Below, in pieces: positions 2,431 to 26,383 of a DNA stretch of 27,097 nucleotides (position 1 is its first letter; each line of letters starts with the position of its first letter). Under the pieces are notes generated by a model, which was not told the DNA's origin, did not search any database, and worked only from the letters and a program-made list of their open reading frames with translations. The stretch is from a virus. The position numbers and the translations under genes were made by a program. The stretch is from positions 1 to 27,097 of IMG/VR virus record IMGVR_UViG_3300037502_002481. The stretch is one strand, 5' to 3'.

Positions 2431-2810
2431 CGCATAAACATCGAAGTATAAGGATGGCTGGGATAATTAAATAACGGACCGTTATAAGCCCATTTAGCAC
2501 CGCTTGTTATATGTTGTTGCCAATATTGCCATGGTGTTTTAAACTTAGGTTCTTTAAAGTCTAACCAAAAATAACAACGGTGTGTTTTTAGTTCGTTATT
2601 CAGCAAAGCAACCCACGAATAATAACGATTTTCTGTTTCAATAACTGAATAGTAGCGCGATGGCTGCCAAAATTTTTTCTTAGCATTCTTTTTATAGAAC
2701 TTAGCAGTAAGCGGATAATAGTTAAACGTTAGATTCATAATTAAACCAAGTTCAATGTTATCCGGGTTACTGCTTAATATGAGTTTACGAACCCAATCCG
2801 ATTCCTTCAT
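2427..2810 (-). CDS. Hypothetical protein, last gene of the leftward operon
   Basis: I do not recognise this 127-aa protein. It is rich in Tyr, Trp, Phe and Lys, with clusters such as KKNAKKKFWQPSRYYS and CYFWLDFKEPKF, and has no signal peptide, membrane segment or known motif. The start at 2810 overlaps the sigma-factor gene by 26 nt; Met25 at 2738 would avoid the overlap and is the alternative start. The end overlaps the metallophosphoesterase stop by 4 nt on the other strand. Its tight placement behind the sigma gene argues that it is real and co-transcribed; function is unknown. Confidence 0.6.
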   Translation of the reverse strand: MKESDWVRKLILSSNPDNIELGLIMNLTFNYYPLTAKFYKKNAKKKFWQPSRYYSVIETENRYYSWVALLNNELKTHRCYFWLDFKEPKFKTPWQYWQQHITSGAKWAYNGPLFNYPSHPYTSMFMR

Positions 2811-3561
2811 ATTTATTTCTTATTTTTTGAAATGCTTGTTCTTGAATTTGCCTAACACGTTCACGGCTAATTTTTAGTTCATTGGCTACATTACTTAAAT
2901 CACGTGGGTAAAAATCCAAATATCTAAGTTCTAAAACATTTAACTCACGTTGTGTTAAGCATTCGGTTAGTTCTTTATAGATTTCTTTTTGTTCTACATT
3001 TAGAATATATTTATCTGTACGTTCATCGCCTGCAACCTGGTATATATTATCGCCATCTTCATCTGTTTCATCTAAACTAACAAAACCAGTTATACTTTTA
3101 GCTGTTTGGATTACATTTTCTTTCACATTCAGTTTTTTGGCTAATGTTTCAGTATCTAAATCTTCATATTTAGTCAAAGCATATTTAACTAATTGAACCC
3201 TATGCGGCAAATATACAAAGGTTTTTTTGGTATCTATGTATTCTTTGATTTGGCTTTGAATGTGAAACAGTGCATAGCTGATAAACTTATTTTGATAAGT
3301 TGGATTATAACTATCAGCTGCTTTTATTAAGCCTATCATGGCTTCAGATATTAGGTCCATAATATCGACCTGTGAATTATCATATCTAAAGGCAATTGAA
3401 GCAGCAAACAACATATTGTGTTTTATCAGCATATCGCGATTCGCGGTATGTTCCTGTTCCCTTGTAAGTGGTTTATATTTTTGCGCTTCGGTTAAAAACT
3501 TTTGCAGAATACCTTTTTTGCTACGCCTGTTATTTTCTTTAATGTTTACATGCTTAATCAT
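2785..3561 (-). CDS. Sigma-70 family RNA polymerase sigma factor
   Basis: This is a phage-encoded sigma factor expected to redirect host RNA polymerase. With the Met start at 3561 it is 258 aa. A region-1.2-like segment (KPLTREQEHTANRDML) leads into region 2 (DLISEAMIGLIKAADSYNP, then KFISYALFHIQSQIKEYI), a region-3-like helical stretch (DTETLAKKLNVKENVIQTA), and region 4 with the helix-turn-helix SNVANELKISRERVRQIQEQA near the C-terminus. An open frame continues upstream to 3621, but those 20 extra residues would overlap the preceding gene by 68 nt; starting at 3561 reduces this to 8 nt, normal operon spacing. Regions 2 and 4 are both present, resembling a housekeeping-type rather than ECF sigma factor. 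It probably controls a subset of phage genes; which promoters it reads is unknown. Confidence 0.9.
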   Translation of the reverse strand: MIKHVNIKENNRRSKKGILQKFLTEAQKYKPLTREQEHTANRDMLIKHNMLFAASIAFRYDNSQVDIMDLISEAMIGLIKAADSYNPTYQNKFISYALFHIQSQIKEYIDTKKTFVYLPHRVQLVKYALTKYEDLDTETLAKKLNVKENVIQTAKSITGFVSLDETDEDGDNIYQVAGDERTDKYILNVEQKEIYKELTECLTQRELNVLELRYLDFYPRDLSNVANELKISRERVRQIQEQAFQKIRNKYEGIGLGS

Positions 3562-3865
3562 AAGTATAGAAAGGATAATAGTTAGAAATTTGTTTTTTAT
3601 TACGGCGGCAAATAAACGCATCTTTGTGCGCGCGCTTCCAAGTGGTTAGCATTATTTCAGCTTCTTCATATGTATCATAAACAAACATGATTCTGTATAA
3701 ACTATCTGTTTGTTCTACCATTGCTTGTTCAAGTGTACACATGGCTAAGTGTTCAGCGCGTATGTATTCAGGATGGCGTGTGCTAAGTATCTGAATGCAG
3801 TACATAGTATCTGTTTGCGCGTATGCTGATGCGCTAAATAGTAATAAAAAAAGTAGTGTTTTCAT
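3554..3865 (-). CDS. Secreted SPOR-domain-like protein
   Basis: A 103-aa protein with a clear signal peptide: MKTLL, a hydrophobic core to about residue 14, and a probable signal peptidase I site after AYA (residues 14-16). The mature part, about residues 20-90, has the layout of a SPOR fold: an opening strand YCIQILST, a helix rich in Ala/Glu, a second strand YRIMFVYDTYEEAE, and a final helix and strand ending DAFICRR. SPOR domains bind denuded peptidoglycan strands at division sites. A periplasmic, wall-binding role is therefore plausible for this phage protein, possibly in lysis or superinfection control, but similarity is judged by eye only. It lies between a small head-type domain protein and the sigma factor in the leftward operon and overlaps the latter by 8 nt. 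Confidence 0.62.
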   Translation of the reverse strand: MKTLLFLLLFSASAYAQTDTMYCIQILSTRHPEYIRAEHLAMCTLEQAMVEQTDSLYRIMFVYDTYEEAEIMLTTWKRAHKDAFICRRNKKQISNYYPFYTYD

Positions 3866-3884
3866 GTTGTTAGTGTGTTAATGG

Positions 3885-4193
3885 TTATTTGTTGTTTTCC
3901 AATGATTCTATTTTTCTGATAGCCCAGTTAATACCAGCATCTGAGCCCCATGCATCCCACATGATGCCGCCGCAACCTTCGTTGTATGGTACATTTTTAT
4001 TCTGTTGATGCCTAATGAATGCCGCCATGCGTTTAACCGTTTCAATGCTGATTGGTTCGCCTTTGGCTAATTGGTTAGCGCGTGCCCAACCTACTAAAGT
4101 ACCGCAGCCTTTTGTATTGCCTGTTTCCTCTTTCCATTTTAGCGCACGTTTCGCCGCTTCGGTAGCAGCCTTTGGATAGTCTGTGAATGTCAT
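3885..4193 (-). CDS. Small phage protein with the KRMxxFxRH / WGSDAGxxWA module
   Basis: This 102-aa protein is a single compact module recognisable from many phage genomes: an N-terminal helix (ATEAAKRALKWKEE), a GWARANQLAKGEPIS segment, ETVKRMAAFIRHQ, and a C-terminal WDAWGSDAGINWAIRKI. In other phages the same module is often fused to or encoded beside head maturation proteases or head morphogenesis proteins; its biochemical role is not established as far as I know. Here it stands alone in the leftward operon, far from the head genes at 15.5-22 kb, which is unusual. There is no signal peptide or membrane segment. It is spaced 12 nt from the upstream gene and 19 nt from the SPOR-like gene, consistent with one transcript. 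Confidence 0.7.
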   Translation of the reverse strand: MTFTDYPKAATEAAKRALKWKEETGNTKGCGTLVGWARANQLAKGEPISIETVKRMAAFIRHQQNKNVPYNEGCGGIMWDAWGSDAGINWAIRKIESLENNK

Positions 4194-4996: not shown

Positions 4997-5557
4997 ATGA
5001 TTTTCAGAAAGCGAAACAGAGCAGAGCAAAACGAAAGTAATTATCAGAAGTGGCTTAAAACCTACATTCCCGAAACCACAAAGCAAAGAATAGAATTGGT
5101 TAGAGTTTTTACAGACCGCGCTGATAATAATTTTTATATTCTTAAAAACCCGGCTAACTTAACGCGTGAACGTGCACAAAGAATTGAAGAAGCTATGACC
5201 GCTATAGATTTTGGCATTAACAAAACTGAAGTAGTTGAAAAGCTAACTGGCATGTTAGAAATAGTTGAAGATATGCCATGGCAAAACATGACACGTGACA
5301 AGCTAAAAGAATTTCACACCAAATCTAAGGACCAGTTAAATGATATTCTGTATAGGCTTAAAAATGTTAAGATAGATGATTTGTTATTAGAAGCTGGTTT
5401 GTATTTCTTTTATATTGATGGCGAAAATCCCTATATTATCAACAGCGAAACGCAGCAGCGCAAAATGGATGCAATAAAGAAAGATGATGAATTGCGCGCT
5501 TTTTTTTTGAACAGTATAGAACAAATCTTGAAAGGTTCGAGCGCTTTAAACGTTTAA
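4997..5557 (+). CDS. Tail assembly chaperone, short (0-frame) form
   Basis: A 186-aa soluble, largely helical, charged protein directly upstream of the tape measure gene, the position of the lambda gpG-type tail assembly chaperone. Such chaperones coat the tape measure protein before tail-tube polymerisation and are absent from the finished virion. The sequence itself shows no signature motif; the assignment rests on position, length and the slippery T9 run at 5500-5508, where a -1 shift would continue the protein into a second open frame. The short form ends 16 codons after the slippery site at TAA 5555-5557. The start at 4997 follows the leader AAATTATAAACACATG, which recurs exactly before the gene at 22138. 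Confidence 0.7.
   Translation: MIFRKRNRAEQNESNYQKWLKTYIPETTKQRIELVRVFTDRADNNFYILKNPANLTRERAQRIEEAMTAIDFGINKTEVVEKLTGMLEIVEDMPWQNMTRDKLKEFHTKSKDQLNDILYRLKNVKIDDLLLEAGLYFFYIDGENPYIINSETQQRKMDAIKKDDELRAFFLNSIEQILKGSSALNV
5500..5508 (+). other. Slippery T9 run for -1 frameshift
   Basis: Nine consecutive T residues are read GCT TTT TTT TTG in frame 0. A slip of one base back gives TTT then GAA CAG TAT and opens a frame with no stop until 5809-5811. T-TTT-TTT fits the X-XXY-YYZ rule for -1 slippage. No strong downstream stem-loop is evident by eye; the GAAC/GTTC and AAAG/CTTT pairs between 5509 and 5551 are weak. Confidence 0.7.
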
Positions 5558-5811
5558 ATTTTCCAAGGCTAAACAAAATTGAACCGAACGTAAAACCAAG
5601 AAAAAAACCACAAACATATCAGCACGCAATACAGAAATTAAAAGAACAAAACCGCGAAAATGATTATATTATAACTAAGGGTGACCCGGTACAGATGCAG
5701 AATGTTAGATTTTGGGTTATTCGTGATTATTACAGCGCATTAGAACAGATACTTAAAGATAATGATAGGGCTGAACAAGCCAATAAAAAAATAAACAATG
5801 GCAGAAATTAA
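5506..5811 (+). CDS. -1 frame extension of the tail assembly chaperone (gpGT-like)
   Basis: After the slippery run the -1 frame stays open for 101 codons (5509-5811, including stop TAA), fills the otherwise gene-less 240 nt before the tape measure gene, and overlaps its start by 14 nt. The frame has no early start codon (first ATG is codon 63), so it can only be translated well as a fusion. It reads as a proper protein: charged and helical (EQYRTNLERFERFKRL), a basic Pro-rich linker (NVKPRKKPQ), then RFWVIRDYYSALEQILKD. The fusion would be 271 aa. In lambda the equivalent T domain binds the tail-tube protein and recruits it to the tape measure. The shift is inferred from sequence, not measured. 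Confidence 0.75.
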   Translation, partial: FEQYRTNLERFERFKRLNFPRLNKIEPNVKPRKKPQTYQHAIQKLKEQNRENDYIITKGDPVQMQNVRFWVIRDYYSALEQILKDNDRAEQANKKINNGRN

Positions 5812-8593
5812 AGATGTATATAGTTTAGAATTTAATGGTTCACAGTTTCAGTCTGAACTTGACAGCGCGATAGCTAAAGTTGAAGAACTTAACTCGGCCA
5901 TGGCTGAAGGCGCTGATGTAGCAGGTGAACTTGAAGATGCGCAAAGTAACTTAGTTTCTGTTTTAGGCATGGAAGCTAAAGGTGTTGACCAGTTGAATCA
6001 AAAACGTGATGCGCTGGTTAAAACACAGAAAACATTAAATAATGAATCAAAAGCTGGTGTAGCTGTTGGTAAACAATTAGATGCCACAAATAAACAGATA
6101 GCAGTTAGCACAGGTCAGGCGGCAACACAGCAAAAAAGTTTTGCAGGTTCGTTACTACAAGGCGCACGAAATATAAATTCATTACGCCGCGCTGGTATGT
6201 TATTAGGTAATGTATTTAGATTGTTAGGTGGTTTAAATCCTTTTGGTTTGTTACTAACTGCTATACCTACCGTTATAAGTCTTATAACTGGTGCAACTAA
6301 TGCTCAAAAAAGTTTTAATGAAGCGGCTGAATCTGCAATAGATAATTATGCAAAAGAAAAAGTAGCTTTAGATGAATTATTTAATTCGCTTACTGATGTT
6401 AATGTTAAAGGTGATGAAAGAAGTGCTGTTATTGAACAAATAAATCAGCAATACGGCGATTATTTGCCTAACTTATTAACTGAAGCATCAACAGCTGAAG
6501 AAATTGCAGCGGCTTACGATTTAGTTAATCAGGCATTGATAAGAAAGGCGGTTACACAGGCTAAAACGCAAGCATTAGAAGAGGAAACTTCTAAATTATT
6601 AAAAGGTCAGATGTCATCTTTAAAAGAGATTGCACTAAATGAAAAAATAATTCAAGAACAAAAAGAAAAAGGTATAAGGCCTTCAAAAAATGCCTTGGCA
6701 AGAATTGAATTAGAAAAGAAAAATATTAAAACATATCAAAAACAATATGAAGAATCTTTAAAAGTTATTGACAAAGCATCCAAAGACCTTGAAAAAACAT
6801 TAGGTTTAAATGCAGAAAACGGCGGCAAACGACAAGTTAAAACTGCTAAAAAAACACAAAAAGATATTAAGCAAGTAAATAAAAATGCTGCTGATGATAA
6901 ATTAAAAGCATTACAAGAAGAACTAACAAACCTTGAAAATGCTTTGAAAATTGAAATCGGTTTAACTGAAGAAGGTACAGAAGCGCGTGCAAGGGCTGAA
7001 TTAAAATATATAGATGTTATCGAAGGATTTAGAATACAGAATCAAAAAGGTTTTGGCGATACTGAAGCTGAAATAACTTTGATGATGCAAGACAATGTAG
7101 CTAAGCGCAAAAAAATAAACTTAGACTATTTTAATTCATTAGATGAAAAAGAAAAAGAACGTATTGAAAAAATCAAAACACAAATTGATGAAACTGAAAC
7201 GCTATTAAATTTACAAATTCAAGATACGCAAGAAGGCAGCCAAGAACGTATTAATGCAGAAATGCAATACTATGATGTGCTAAAAGATTTATATACAAGG
7301 TATGCTAAAGAATTAGGCATGACCGAAAACCAAATAAATGATTTTGTAAAACAAGGGCTTAAAAAACGTTTTGGCCTATATGAAGATTTTTATAATAAGC
7401 AGTCAACTAATCAGCTAAATAATTTAGAACGCGAACTAAATAACCAGCTAACTGTATTAGAACAAGAACGTAACGTACTATTGCAAGCAGCAACAGGTAA
7501 TGCTGAAGAACAAGAAAAGATTAACAAAACTTTTGATAAGCGCCGTTTAGAACTTGAAAAAGATTCTAATAAAAAAATATTAGATGCAAGGTTAACGCTA
7601 TTAAATCAGCTAAGAGCATTGGCCGTTTCAACTGGTGATGCTAATTTACTAACTGACATTGATAAGCAAATATCAGAAGTAGAATTAAAGTTAGTTGAAT
7701 TAGGTAAACTTACCGAAGATGGCATAGAACCGCCCGACCCTAAAAAACTTATTGAACAGATAGGCCAAGTTATTACCGGTGTTTCTGATTCTGTTTTCTC
7801 AGTTCTTAATGCCCAAGTTCAAGCCTACATTAGCGGACTTGACAAGGCCATTGATAAAAGCAAATCTGCGTTAGATGAAATCAGAAATAATAGTGAAGAA
7901 TATAATGCAAGGCAGTTGGAAATTGAAAAGGAACGTTTAGAACGTTTAGAACAAGAACGAGCACGTGCTGTTGAACGTGAAAAGAATTTAGCGCAGGTAC
8001 AGATAGCTATCAATGCTGCTATTGCAATTTCAAAGGCGGTGGCTGAAGGTGCTGGAGTTGCATCGGCTGTAACTGTTGCATTAACATTGGCTTCATTGGT
8101 TGCAGGTTTAGCACAGGCGCGCGTAGCAGCTGGTAATGCGTTCTTCAAAGGTGTTGAATATCTTGAACGTGGCAATAATAAGGCTGGCCGAGATACAATA
8201 CCTGCCATGCTTAACGAGGGTGAACGTGTTATTACAACCGATACAAACGACCGTTATTGGGATGTGTTGACAGCTGTACACAATAACAGAATACCTGCCA
8301 ATGTACTTAACACATTTGCTAAGGCATATCAGCAAGGCGGCATTAAAAACGCTTTGGGTGCGTTCGGTGATAATGTTTCACTTAGTAGTGAACTTGGCCA
8401 AAAATCAATCTTTGTAAACGTGGCGCAAACATACGGCGGCCTTGAAAACAGATTAGAACGTATTGAAGCCGTTTTAACTGATTTACCTAAGTACATGCCG
8501 CGAACTACTGTAAGTGCCAATGCTAACGGTATATTCAAGATTGTAGAACAAAGACAGGCGCGTAAAAACTATTCACGTAATTGGTCAAAATAA
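5798..8593 (+). CDS. Tail tape measure protein
   Basis: The protein spans the tail lumen, sets tail length and is ejected ahead of the DNA. At 931 aa it is the longest product here. An N-terminal helical region is followed by a hydrophobic segment around residues 145-168 (GLNPFGLLLTAIPTVISLITG), a long coiled-coil centre rich in Glu, Lys, Gln and Asn, a second hydrophobic, Ala-rich region at about 725-775 (IAINAAIAISKAVAEGAG onward), and the C-terminal segment GRDTIPAMLNEGERVITT common to tape measure proteins of Bacteroidota phages. Residues 376-449 and 463-536 form two copies of a helical unit, about 30% identical without gaps at an 87-residue offset. Translation starts inside the end of the frameshifted chaperone frame (14-nt overlap), a normal arrangement for this gene pair. 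Confidence 0.92.
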   Translation: MAEIKDVYSLEFNGSQFQSELDSAIAKVEELNSAMAEGADVAGELEDAQSNLVSVLGMEAKGVDQLNQKRDALVKTQKTLNNESKAGVAVGKQLDATNKQIAVSTGQAATQQKSFAGSLLQGARNINSLRRAGMLLGNVFRLLGGLNPFGLLLTAIPTVISLITGATNAQKSFNEAAESAIDNYAKEKVALDELFNSLTDVNVKGDERSAVIEQINQQYGDYLPNLLTEASTAEEIAAAYDLVNQALIRKAVTQAKTQALEEETSKLLKGQMSSLKEIALNEKIIQEQKEKGIRPSKNALARIELEKKNIKTYQKQYEESLKVIDKASKDLEKTLGLNAENGGKRQVKTAKKTQKDIKQVNKNAADDKLKALQEELTNLENALKIEIGLTEEGTEARARAELKYIDVIEGFRIQNQKGFGDTEAEITLMMQDNVAKRKKINLDYFNSLDEKEKERIEKIKTQIDETETLLNLQIQDTQEGSQERINAEMQYYDVLKDLYTRYAKELGMTENQINDFVKQGLKKRFGLYEDFYNKQSTNQLNNLERELNNQLTVLEQERNVLLQAATGNAEEQEKINKTFDKRRLELEKDSNKKILDARLTLLNQLRALAVSTGDANLLTDIDKQISEVELKLVELGKLTEDGIEPPDPKKLIEQIGQVITGVSDSVFSVLNAQVQAYISGLDKAIDKSKSALDEIRNNSEEYNARQLEIEKERLERLEQERARAVEREKNLAQVQIAINAAIAISKAVAEGAGVASAVTVALTLASLVAGLAQARVAAGNAFFKGVEYLERGNNKAGRDTIPAMLNEGERVITTDTNDRYWDVLTAVHNNRIPANVLNTFAKAYQQGGIKNALGAFGDNVSLSSELGQKSIFVNVAQTYGGLENRLERIEAVLTDLPKYMPRTTVSANANGIFKIVEQRQARKNYSRNWSK

Positions 8594-13617: not shown

Positions 13618-14571
13618 ATGAATTTAAATTATCCTATAACATATACGCCTGAAAATAGTAGAACCTATGCATTTAGGCAAGCTGTACCGATTCGGTATGC
13701 ATGCCCTGTTTTACCTGGTAACTTTATGCAAAGTGAAACCGATGCATGGAACTGTAATCTTTGCGGTTCAGATATTCCATTTTATATACCTTATGTACAG
13801 GGCGATGTTATACCGTTTCAAACACAATATGCAGATAAGTATAATCAGCCTAATAGCGTTTTAACTGCAGGTTTTTTTACTGATAATACCGAACCGTATT
13901 ATGTAAAAGTTAATTTATATGATTGTTGTGGTAATTTAATTACAGATAATATAGCTGAATTTTCAGAAAGTTACCATGTAGGTCAAAGCCTTTCAACTGG
14001 CAGTATTCAAACTTGGTTTGTGAATACCGGTATGTTTACAACTGGCTTTGATTGTTTTAGATTAAAGGTTGAATTTTACAAACTTAATCAGATAACATTA
14101 GAACCTGAATTAGATAAAACGCTTTGGACTGAATATTATAAAGCTGTTGAAGATTGCGGCAACTTAGTTGACACTTCAATTATTTATAGTACTTATGCAA
14201 ACTTTGACTGCAATGGTAATTTTTACGGAACTTTGCAAAATTATTTAGGTTCTAATAATACAGCATTTTACAATTCGCTTCGCATTTTTGGTACAGTTGA
14301 ATTTTTTGGTGATACTGAAGCGGTTGTAGAAAATGATAGAAATGTAGTTATTAGTAAAGATATAACAGAAAATTACGGTATAATATCGGCAGCGGTACCG
14401 CCATTTTATATTCGGTTATTACAACAAGCTGTGAGAGGCAATTATGTAACCGTTGATGGTGTGCAGTATCAAAACTTTAGATATGATTCTAAGCCTGAAG
14501 ATAACCGAATGTTTTTGTTAGATTTGTCGTTTGACAAAAAATGTCGTTTAGATAACAAACAATGTAGGTGA
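13618..14571 (+). CDS. Structural protein with CxxC motifs
   Basis: I do not recognise this 317-aa protein. It is beta-rich, aromatic-rich and has a CNLC pair near residue 45, a CC pair (YDCCGN) near residue 104 and a basic Cys-containing C-terminus (KKCRLDNKQCR). There is no signal peptide or membrane helix. It is the first gene behind its own strong promoter and is followed by the tail-tube candidate in the same unit, so it is probably a virion protein needed in quantity, for example a tail or adaptor component. The paired cysteines suggest zinc binding or disulfide stabilisation, but which of these cannot be told. The stop is followed by a 35-nt gap before the next ATG. Confidence 0.55.
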   Translation: MNLNYPITYTPENSRTYAFRQAVPIRYACPVLPGNFMQSETDAWNCNLCGSDIPFYIPYVQGDVIPFQTQYADKYNQPNSVLTAGFFTDNTEPYYVKVNLYDCCGNLITDNIAEFSESYHVGQSLSTGSIQTWFVNTGMFTTGFDCFRLKVEFYKLNQITLEPELDKTLWTEYYKAVEDCGNLVDTSIIYSTYANFDCNGNFYGTLQNYLGSNNTAFYNSLRIFGTVEFFGDTEAVVENDRNVVISKDITENYGIISAAVPPFYIRLLQQAVRGNYVTVDGVQYQNFRYDSKPEDNRMFLLDLSFDKKCRLDNKQCR

Positions 14572-14606
14572 GGTCGTATTTATTTACAATTTTAAAAACA
14601 AAAAAC

Positions 14607-15485
14607 ATGAATAATATTGATTTTATAAAAGGCTTTTTAGGTGCATTCGGAGTTTGCCCTCCATGCGTTGATGATGCAAATGTGCCTAATTATCTTTGCG
14701 ACCCATGTGATTCTACTGTTTATTCAGGTGGTATCGCAGGTTGGTTTGCAAAAAAATGTTCTTATGAATTTGATGATATTACAGATTCTACTGAATGGGA
14801 AACTGCAATAGCTAACAAAGATGTATTTGGCCGCGTAAACGGTTCACGTATCAGCGGTGGTTTGCCTGCACCTGAATTTACTACTAAAAAGCGTGGTAGC
14901 TGCGGACAAGAGGAGGTAGTAAAACAGTCGCGTGTTGTATCTCTTACTGATGCTGAAAACGACATTACATTTACTATTGATTCGCTTTACAATTTCCTAT
15001 CTAACCCTGCTAAAGCTGCAGGTTATGAATTTGGCTTTGTAACTTGTGATGGCCGTTTCTTAGGTTGGTATTCAAACGTAACAGTTCGCCCATTTTATCA
15101 GATTGCTGAAACTGATGAAGATGATGCCTATTGGACTATTGAATTTAGATACAATGAACAGTTAGGTACATTTAGCCAAATATCATTAGACTTCTTACTT
15201 ACACAGTCTTATAATGTTTGTTGGATTACTTCAATTGTTGTAACTGGTTTTGGTGGCGCTACAACTGTTGCCGATGGCGATACATTGCAAATGATTGCAA
15301 CTATTCAGCCTATCAATGCTACTAATACAAATGTTGTATGGTCAGTTGTTAACGGTTCAGGTTCTGCAACTATTAGTGTAGGCGGTTTACTTACTGCTAC
15401 AGGTGCAGGTACTGTTACTGTTATCGCTACGGCTGCCGATTCAGGCGCTGTAACTGGTCAGCTTGTTGTTACTGTAACTCCATAG
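14607..15485 (+). CDS. Candidate major tail (tube) protein with C-terminal Ig-like domain
   Basis: A 292-aa protein. The N-terminal part has CPPC and CDPC pairs near residues 13-33; the middle (about 60-200) is beta-rich; residues about 207-292 form a bacterial Ig-like (BIG_2-type) domain: strand VVTGFGG, NVVWSVVNGSGSATIS, GLLTATGAGTVTVIATA. Tail-tube and capsid proteins of tailed phages often carry such C-terminal Ig domains exposed on the virion. Support for a major structural role: codon use has more C-ending and 'optimal' codons than neighbours, shared only with the capsid candidate; a strong promoter upstream; a stem-loop just downstream. An open frame extends back to 14568, overlapping the previous stop, but Met at 14607 follows an A-rich leader (AAAAAC) and begins a conventional N-terminus. 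A surface decoration protein is the alternative. Confidence 0.55.
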   Translation: MNNIDFIKGFLGAFGVCPPCVDDANVPNYLCDPCDSTVYSGGIAGWFAKKCSYEFDDITDSTEWETAIANKDVFGRVNGSRISGGLPAPEFTTKKRGSCGQEEVVKQSRVVSLTDAENDITFTIDSLYNFLSNPAKAAGYEFGFVTCDGRFLGWYSNVTVRPFYQIAETDEDDAYWTIEFRYNEQLGTFSQISLDFLLTQSYNVCWITSIVVTGFGGATTVADGDTLQMIATIQPINATNTNVVWSVVNGSGSATISVGGLLTATGAGTVTVIATAADSGAVTGQLVVTVTP

Positions 15486-18151: not shown

Positions 18152-18778
18152 ATGCAGAACTTTCAAAAAATACTACAAAGCAAAGGTTATTACCATGCTG
18201 CCATTGATGGCATTGTAGGACCTAAAACATTAACAGGTGCAAAAGCATGGATAGATACAGAAATGAATATTCGCGGATGGGTAAAACCTGTTAATGATTT
18301 TGTTTGGATTCGTACGGGTCAAACATTTGATAATAGATTTTCGGACTTTGTTGTGAGGTTTCAAAACAGAATTGCCGACATGATTATGCCCTGCACAACA
18401 AAACCTGGTGACTTTTACATATTCAATCCTTTGACCGTTGGTGGCATCACAGGTGCAGCGGTTGCATGTGAGCAGCAAGTTATAGGCTCTCATAAGTTTG
18501 TCACATCTGGTACATGGTCATCTTTATGGCTCGGTGCTCCGTACTTTTATCAATCTGGTGCAATAGAAATTTACCGCGATGGCAATAAAGATAGAAATTT
18601 AGATAAAAATATTAAAACTCGCGGTTGGTATGGTATCAACTTTCATCGCGGCGGTTTAGGTAGCATAGTTGACCAATGGTCAGCAGGTTGTATGGTAGTT
18701 CCTGATGCGCGTTGGTTCGAAGCTATTAAAATATTTCAGCCTAATCAGTTAATAAATTTTACCTTAATAGAATGTTAG
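18152..18778 (+). CDS. Endolysin: peptidoglycan-binding domain plus HxnSAGC domain
   Basis: A 208-aa cell-wall protein. Residues 1-37 form a PG_binding_1-like repeat (FQKILQSKGYYHAAIDGIVG, then PKTL). The C-terminal domain carries GINFHRGG (His165) and WSAGC (Ser177-Cys180), an arrangement like the HxnSxGC active site of L,D-transpeptidase (YkuD)-fold proteins and seen in phage lysins of Bacteroidota. A peptidoglycan-cleaving or remodelling role at lysis, or in DNA entry, is therefore likely; the exact bond is unknown. There is no signal peptide, so export would need a holin, none of which was identified here. The gene lies inside the head cluster, 3 nt after the Mu-F-like gene and with a 7-nt overlap with the next gene. 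Confidence 0.72.
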   Translation: MQNFQKILQSKGYYHAAIDGIVGPKTLTGAKAWIDTEMNIRGWVKPVNDFVWIRTGQTFDNRFSDFVVRFQNRIADMIMPCTTKPGDFYIFNPLTVGGITGAAVACEQQVIGSHKFVTSGTWSSLWLGAPYFYQSGAIEIYRDGNKDRNLDKNIKTRGWYGINFHRGGLGSIVDQWSAGCMVVPDARWFEAIKIFQPNQLINFTLIEC

Positions 18779-24716: not shown

Positions 24717-25040
24717 ATGCCATGCTGTAATTGTTGTGAAAAAACGTTAAATTTGGGCTGCTTTAATGCGTGCGATGCTGTTTATAATACAGGTATTGTT
24801 GTAGATGCATTAACTGAAGGCACTTATATTTTAGAATTGACATTTGGTAGTGTAAATATTTATTATAGTGTTAATGTTTTAGATGGTGAAACGGTAATAT
24901 TTACGCTTACAAATCTAAATGAAAATTATACCTATTCAGGACAAATAATTGACCCTAACGGCAAAATTATAAACATTGAAGTAGATGGCATTGAATATGA
25001 TTGTATCGAATTTAGTACTAAAATAATAATAAACTCATGA
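24717..25040 (+). CDS. Small Cys-rich beta protein ahead of the fibres
   Basis: A 107-aa protein that begins with a dense Cys cluster (PCCNCCEK, then GCFNACDA, six Cys in the first 19 residues) and continues as a beta-sandwich-like domain (TEGTYILELTFGSVNIYYSV onward). A small Ig-like or fibre-adaptor domain is likely. The Cys cluster could bind zinc or form disulfides in the virion. It overlaps the fibre gene by 4 nt (ATGA-type), so the two are translated together, suggesting a role as baseplate adaptor for, or chaperone of, the fibre. Function is inferred from position. Confidence 0.5.
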   Translation: MPCCNCCEKTLNLGCFNACDAVYNTGIVVDALTEGTYILELTFGSVNIYYSVNVLDGETVIFTLTNLNENYTYSGQIIDPNGKIINIEVDGIEYDCIEFSTKIIINS

Positions 25041-26383
25041 TTGATATAGTAAAACTTACAAATGGCAACGTTGCCGTTTATGATTCAACTTCAGGTGATT
25101 TTATCAACAGCCTAAGCCCTGATGTTGTAGAAATTGAATGTAATGTTAACGGTACCGTAAAAGTTATTCAAGATAACGGTAACGTTGAATATTTTGACCC
25201 TGCAGCTGTTGCAAATACTGAAGTTCAACCAGCTGCAGCTATACCATTTAGCGGCGATTGTGCTGCACTTGCTGCTTTATTAAGCACTGATTTTTTTTTT
25301 GTAGTTAGTGGCGGCGGTGGTTCACAAAATCTAAATAGTGTATTAACTATTGGTAATTCTGCAGGTGGTTTAGATATTACTGATTTAAATTTATTAGATT
25401 TTGATACAGCTACAACTTCAACGGTTGGCGCTGGTGAATTGGCGTGGAATGATAGTTTAGGCACTTTAAACTTAGGCTTAAAAGGCGGTAACACAATATC
25501 AAATTTAGGTCAGCATTTGCATGCAAGGGTAGTAAACAAAACAACACCTTTGGTAAATTTGACAAAGGCAGGTTATGAAGTTGTAATTGTTTCAGGTGCT
25601 GCAGGTCAAAGATTAGCAGTAAGATTAGCTAAAGCGGATAGCGATGCAAACAGCGCTGGCACTCTCGGTATTGTTTGTGAGAATATAGCAGGCAATCAAG
25701 AAGGTTTTATTTGTTCAGTTGGTCAGCTAACAAATATCAACACAACTGGTTCTTTGCAGGGTGAAACTTGGAACGATGGTGATTCGCTTTATTTAAGCCC
25801 CACAACTTTCGGAGCTATTACAAACGTAAAACCGAGCGCTCCGTTTCACGATGTAAGGCTTGGTTATGTTGAATATGCACACGCTGTAAACGGTAAAATT
25901 TACGTTAAAATTGACAACGGCTATGAGTTGGATGAATTGCATAATGTGGCGATAAATTCGCTCACGTTGGCGAATAAAGACATTTTGCAGTATAATTCAT
26001 CTACGCTAACTTGGCAAAATGTAAAACAGCCAATCGAGATACAGGCAGCTGCGAGTGATGAAACCACAGCACTAACAACAGGAACGGCAAAGGTTACATT
26101 TAGGCTGCCAGTTGCATTTACTTTGACAGGCGTTCGTGCTTCGCTTACAACTGCACAGGCTTCAGGTTCTATTTTTACCGTTGACATAAATCAGGGCGGA
26201 ACTTCGGTTTTAGGCACTAAGCTGACCATTGACAATACAGAAAAAACAAGTACAACGGCTGCAACACCTGCAACTATTACAACAAGTGCACTAACTGACG
26301 ATGCCGAAATTACGGTTGACATTGACCAAATCGGAGACGGAACGGCAAAAGGTTTGAAAATAACACTAATCGGAACAAGATGA
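25037..26383 (+). CDS. Tail fibre / receptor-binding protein
   Basis: A 448-aa protein with the layout of a phage fibre: a short N-terminal adaptor (about 1-70), a Gly/Ser/Ala linker with GGGGS around residue 95, a beta-rich shaft containing WNDGDSLYLSP (about 250-260), and a C-terminal domain of about 110 residues (DETTALTTGTAKVTFRLPVA through IGDGTAKGLKITLIGTR) that I recognise as a module shared by many unrelated phage fibres. Receptor binding is the likely role. A run of ten T (25291-25300) lies early in the gene, and both alternative frames stop within a few codons. The 3' part uses visibly more G/C-ending codons than the 5' part, consistent with recombination of the module. Confidence 0.72.
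   Translation: MIDIVKLTNGNVAVYDSTSGDFINSLSPDVVEIECNVNGTVKVIQDNGNVEYFDPAAVANTEVQPAAAIPFSGDCAALAALLSTDFFFVVSGGGGSQNLNSVLTIGNSAGGLDITDLNLLDFDTATTSTVGAGELAWNDSLGTLNLGLKGGNTISNLGQHLHARVVNKTTPLVNLTKAGYEVVIVSGAAGQRLAVRLAKADSDANSAGTLGIVCENIAGNQEGFICSVGQLTNINTTGSLQGETWNDGDSLYLSPTTFGAITNVKPSAPFHDVRLGYVEYAHAVNGKIYVKIDNGYELDELHNVAINSLTLANKDILQYNSSTLTWQNVKQPIEIQAAASDETTALTTGTAKVTFRLPVAFTLTGVRASLTTAQASGSIFTVDINQGGTSVLGTKLTIDNTEKTSTTAATPATITTSALTDDAEITVDIDQIGDGTAKGLKITLIGTR

Follow-up and report, generated by a model that had tools for sequence, protein, structure and literature searches.

The stretch of DNA analysed here (the window) comprises 27,097 nucleotides from a virus, positions 1 to 27,097 of IMG/VR record IMGVR_UViG_3300037502_002481. 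Directly before its tape measure gene lies an ORF that carries a run of nine T's (T9) near its end, and from this run a second frame, displaced by -1, remains open up to the start of the tape measure gene (Table 1). The 0-frame codons across the run are GCT TTT TTT TTG AAC, such that T9 begins at a third codon position, and the 0-frame tryptic peptide over the junction is AFFLNSIEQILK. The -1 frame has no stop between 5491 and 5808 and is closed at 5809-5811; counted from the slipped codon 5506-5508, its 101 codons lead to a fusion of 271 aa. The tape measure ATG at 5798 gives an overlap of 14 nt with the -1 frame, and 240 nt (5558-5797) separate the 0-frame ORF from the tape measure gene. The coordinates that had been put forward in a first-pass annotation made from the letters of the DNA all hold, the position of the run being borne out to the base. 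The same annotation had described the -1 frame as having no early start, and indeed its first ATG, GTG or TTG is an ATG found 62 codons past the run; the peptide RFWVIRDYY, which it had given as an example of the -1-frame product, is indeed found in that frame.

Table 1. Features of the recoding locus and of the predicted tail genes, in window coordinates
Feature	Position	Strand	Description
0-frame ORF	4997..5557	+	186 aa; shorter, gpG-like product (proposed tail assembly chaperone)
Slip site T9	5500..5508	+	Invariant length and phase in 75 sequences
-1-frame extension	5506..5811	+	101 codons and stop; C-terminal domain of the 271-aa gpGT-like fusion (proposed)
Tape measure protein	5798..8593	+	931 aa; phrog_9959 tail length tape measure, E 2.6e-6
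Candidate major tail protein, C-terminal Ig-like domain	14568..15485	+	Several PHROG 'major tail protein' families; tentative

The 0-frame protein served as the query in a protein-based search for relatives among 2.9 million viral contigs, which returned 75 loci at 55-99% identity; further scans added a few more. Three loci of the first scan do not reach T9, their matches ending before it at a contig end. In total, 75 sequences (the window and its IMG/VR relatives, an uncultured phage family) span T9, of which 62 are distinct and complete; grouping these at 85% N-part identity gives seven clusters, with N-part identity extending down to 51-55%. Protein-based scans exert no selection for the nucleotides of the run. 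A DNA-pattern scan that demanded T9 yielded one distant relative (L232), in which both frames are open, plus four chance matches; owing to the way in which it was found, L232 is not independent support for the conservation of T9. Using the two most divergent relatives as queries brought up no further ones, and neither frame found a match among 50,697 deposited phage records or among GTDB genomes, the latter scan requiring exact short peptide matches as a first step and being liable to miss distant relatives.

A run of exactly nine T's, never eight or ten, is present in 75 of 75 sequences and stands in one and the same phase (NNT TTT TTT TTG). By the first-pass annotation's own criterion, related phages in which the T run or the -1 frame is destroyed would have spoken against it; instead, every relative keeps the run in phase, and the -1 frame is open over its full length wherever it is not cut by a contig end. 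Across the 62 distinct sequences just four codons of the N part never vary, namely one Trp codon and the TTT TTT TTG of the run. The codon before T9 varies between Ala and Ser (GCT, AGT, TCT), yet it ends in T in all of them, and positions 5500, 5503 and 5506, which are third positions open to synonymous change, show no variation in relatives. Five other columns of the alignment hold at least 50 Phe each: four of these mix TTT and TTC, and one is TTT in 61 of 61 sequences. Because TTT is already the commoner Phe codon (312/366 in the window), one TTT pair alone would mean little; its fixation across synonymously divergent lineages (pS 0.74 among the diverse members) carries more weight. The run by itself is not beyond chance in a genome of 35.6% GC: dinucleotide shuffles of the window gave an expectation of 5.8 overlapping T9 matches against three observed, and when synonymous codons were shuffled 0.9 coding runs of at least T9 were expected against two observed (P=0.13). 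Its conservation and phase in the relatives, together with the selection on the -1 frame described below, are far beyond chance.

Both frames have been maintained at the protein level. Past the 0-frame stop, pN/pS of the -1 frame is 0.22 among close relatives and 0.41 among diverse ones, and the frame contains no stops, whereas the other two frames reach pN/pS values of 1.2-1.7 and hold 3-13 stops per sequence; this combination of low pN/pS and lack of stops marks the -1 frame as a real coding region. The N part, at 51-99% identity between the relatives, has a pN/pS of 0.32 among the diverse members. The 0-frame stop is likewise kept, at a distance of 55 nt from where the run begins in every tabulated locus except the divergent L069 (70 nt), and the short and the fused products thus both appear to be needed. 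Taken together, we regard programmed recoding at T9 as close to certain.

Other origins for the two frames fare poorly against these data. In tailed phages certain neighbouring chaperone genes are separate, and the -1-frame domain could by analogy be a gene of its own, with its own start or coupled after the 0-frame stop, the T run then being incidental. The first -1-frame ATG, GTG or TTG is located ~60 codons past the run in 53 of 62 sequences, however, whereas conservation of the domain extends back to T9; independent initiation does not fit a start so far inside a domain that is conserved from the run onward, and it would leave the invariant T9 unexplained, so that we consider a separate gene very improbable. 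Homopolymers are error-prone, and the layout could in principle be an artefact of sequencing or assembly, or reflect gene decay, in what is naturally one continuous 271-aa ORF; against this, exactly T9 is found in 75 sequences from many samples with N-part identities from 99% to about 51%, with purifying selection on both frames and the 0-frame stop kept, which makes error or decay hardly credible. Homopolymers within genes can also act as contingency loci, their length differing among individual phages and thereby toggling the fusion, but zero length variation in 75 sequences, and a tail chaperone being an atypical phase-variable function, make such switching just as implausible.

The way in which the frame is changed is less clear-cut. 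Two heptamers of the form X_XXZ_ZZN stand in the correct 0-frame phase, T_TTT_TTT at 5500-5506 and T_TTT_TTG at 5503-5509. The slip sequence, which the first-pass annotation did not recognise, is not unfamiliar in kind, U_UUU_UUU and U_UUU_UUG both belonging to the X_XXZ_ZZN class. Such heptamers have been measured in E. coli, where U-rich sequences are among the shift-prone motifs and where, even with no stimulator, shifting is measurable for 61% of heptamers, albeit only 2- to 10-fold over a background of ~0.05%; U_UUU_UUC is used by IS elements of the IS1/IS3 family (PMC4066793). Positions 5507-5509 are held by dual coding, since they specify Leu in the 0 frame and Phe followed by Glu or Asp in the -1 frame, and the invariance of 5500, which lies outside T_TTT_TTG, points to either T_TTT_TTT or the length of the run as the element that is kept. 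Stimulators accompany many known bacterial -1 sites, being common there rather than required, and neither a conserved downstream structure nor an upstream SD-like element was found to serve as one at T9. A stimulatory RNA structure was considered and rejected, as single-sequence folds vary between lineages and the downstream consensus amounts to four weak pairs, none of them backed by compensatory change; nor is nucleotide conservation in the 54 nt after T9 evidence for a structure, because this segment codes in two frames at once. In the window no SD-like element precedes T9, and among the 62 sequences 9 have one within 20 nt upstream of the run.

The first-pass annotation had the ribosome slip back by one base. 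Recoding into the -1 frame is supported, but the T9 sequence would also allow RNA polymerase to slip, in which case some transcripts would carry ten U's, be read straight into the -1 frame, and yield the same fusion alongside the same short product. In many bacteria a run of nine A or T is enough for RNA polymerase to slip, and nine is the run length that was surveyed and found in use there (PMC1088944); in addition, all nine T's are kept at this locus, including 5500, which is dispensable for U_UUU_UUG, and the structure and SD searches brought up no ribosomal stimulator. The exact length does not require a slipping polymerase, however, because U_UUU_UUU, too, requires 5500, and dual coding constrains 5507-5508. 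AT-rich slippage-prone genomes tend to avoid long runs, whereas runs of at least T9 are not avoided in the genes of this phage (the two against 0.9 given above, a small sample), and the tail-chaperone frameshifts in the cited literature are ribosomal. We therefore favour ribosomal slippage as the more probable mechanism, by roughly two to one, although the sequence does not separate it from slippage of the polymerase. The transcriptional route is the less likely of the two but a possible one, under which the chaperone ratio would be fixed at transcription, in a host that is probably a member of the Bacteroidota and makes no use of SD pairing.

That the product is a pair of tail assembly chaperones is suggested by the genomic position. 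The gene that follows is a tape measure by profile, and this adjacency is kept in the relatives, L069 excepted; the end of the -1 ORF ranges from a 26-nt overlap with the tape measure start to an 18-nt gap. In L069 a 99-aa ORF (6803-7102) follows the -1-frame stop and precedes the tape measure; it was absent from the other representatives examined. The chaperone assignment is made mainly because this layout matches that of phage lambda, and a gpG/gpGT-like role, as the first-pass annotation had also put forward, is well supported by position and layout and very probably correct. The sequence and fold comparisons linked neither half to a known tail chaperone: searches of PHROG, Pfam and PDB sequences gave no match to such a family, and AlphaFold models built from 30-31 sequences reached pLDDT values of 68 and 74, too weak to exclude a chaperone fold, so that the lack of matches in a fold search with them is not counted as evidence. 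A sub-threshold Pfam match of the C domain, to PF23992 Pam3_gp32, is located at window positions 5578-5754 and recurs in 24 of 30 members (best E 8e-5); if it is real, that family may belong to the tail chaperones. A major tail protein gene, which usually though not by strict definition lies a little upstream in this type of system, is not found shortly upstream of the chaperone, where the terminase lies instead, with or without an intervening minus-strand cassette. The protein encoded at 14568-15485 matches PHROG 'major tail protein' families with a best E of 4e-8, over its Ig-like C-terminus only, and is tentatively put forward as the likely partner of the -1-frame domain.

Our overall reading, to which we assign a probability of about 0.8, is of -1 recoding on T9, most likely by the ribosome, that makes gpG-like and gpGT-like chaperones from one gene. 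Most ribosomes would stay in the 0 frame and produce the 186-aa gpG-like protein, whilst a minority of products, we infer, would arise by a -1 shift on T9, in which either tRNA-Phe slips on U_UUU_UUU or the tRNAs for Phe and Leu slip on U_UUU_UUG; translation would then run on for 101 codons and end the gpGT-like fusion at the tape measure start. The computation shows the two frames, the invariance of T9, selection on protein in both frames and the place ahead of the tape measure; from these we deduce that a shift takes place, with some rate and by way of the ribosome, and what the chaperones do. In systems of this type the fusion is a low-ratio product that does not enter the virion and that binds both the tape measure and the tail tube protein. 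In lambda the two parts bind different partners, the tape measure for G and the tail tube protein for T, and the ratio of gpG to gpGT, ~30:1, is crucial (PMC5009743). By analogy, binding of the tape measure would fall to the common N-terminal part and recruitment of the tail tube protein to the rarer -1-frame domain, and the ratio of the two products would matter for tail assembly.

The surroundings of the locus bear on the likely host. None of the 28 genes of the window has an SD-like tetramer (GGAG, GAGG or AGGA) upstream of its start, the leaders being A/T-rich. This suggests a host without SD pairing, which would point to the Bacteroidota. In three relatives (L054, L061 and L062) the chaperone directly follows the terminase; in the window the two are separated by a metallophosphoesterase gene and by a minus-strand cassette, which is missing in some relatives, and the cassette includes a gene for an RNA polymerase sigma factor (2785-3621, minus strand; phrog_351, E 2e-34). 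A predicted peptidoglycan-active protein is encoded at 18152-18778 (phrog_33083 endolysin, E 5e-6), and because a protein with a similar start (MKNFQKILKDRGYYSGAIDGIVGPLTLTATKQWIDAEMNIRGWVKPV) is encoded in the minus-strand cassette upstream of the chaperone in L053, the lysis gene may have moved. A run of ten T's at 25291-25300 is found inside the coding frame of the ORF at 25037-26383 (...STDFFFVVSGG...); neither of the remaining two frames stays open for more than a few codons, and the run looks incidental, without a second frame.

The kind of event proposed, a frameshift in tail building, is known; here it would take place in unrecognised proteins and at an unusually bare site. The analysis gives a likely function and a recoded product to a pair of domains without a match in any annotated family, including a 101-codon extension that would be missed by gene callers. 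With neither a conserved hairpin nor an SD-like element at T9, and with SD motifs at none of the 28 genes, the locus offers a clean case for asking how a homopolymer alone can set the ratio of two products, be it through the ribosome or the polymerase.

Known systems resemble the locus in different respects. Transcriptional slippage, as in Thermus dnaX, Shigella mxiE and spa13 and some IS elements (PMC1088944, PMC5009743), shares with it a nine-T homopolymer at the frame change, the lack of a visible stimulator and an extended product; it differs in that a phage tail chaperone case is not described in that literature, and in that long T runs are not avoided in the genes of this phage. The U_UUU_UUC site of the IS1/IS3 family (PMC4066793) is the same kind of slip sequence and also gives an extended fusion as the second product, although the genes and functions are others, and many frameshifting IS elements have a stimulatory structure, which was not found at T9. 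A human-gut phage, MT837556.1 (L289), has a related tape measure (36% over 123 aa), preceded by a 160-aa ORF and an overlapping -1-frame ORF that ends 1 nt before the tape measure ATG, an identical arrangement that speaks for the present reading; its chaperone ORFs have no detectable similarity to those of the window, T9 is lacking, and the record is marked unverified. Positions 3279-3973 of this unannotated record probably represent a second frameshifted chaperone, for which T_TTC at 3680-3683 is one candidate slip site. Lambda and many long-tailed phages have a -1-frameshifted chaperone at this position (PMC5009743), a feature described as conserved among long-tailed dsDNA phages (Xu, Hendrix and Duda 2004, as cited in PMC5009743). 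The window differs from lambda in its upstream gene, a terminase rather than the major tail protein, in its slip site, T9 rather than a heptamer of the GGGAAAG type (GGGAAAG in TP901-1; PMC4493119), and in that no sequence or fold similarity to its chaperone was found; the frameshift is conserved in tail chaperones despite low sequence similarity, and similarity is thus not expected in all members. As in lambda, the gene stands directly before the tape measure, its second frame adds a domain that ends at the tape measure start, and the short and the fused products are both conserved.
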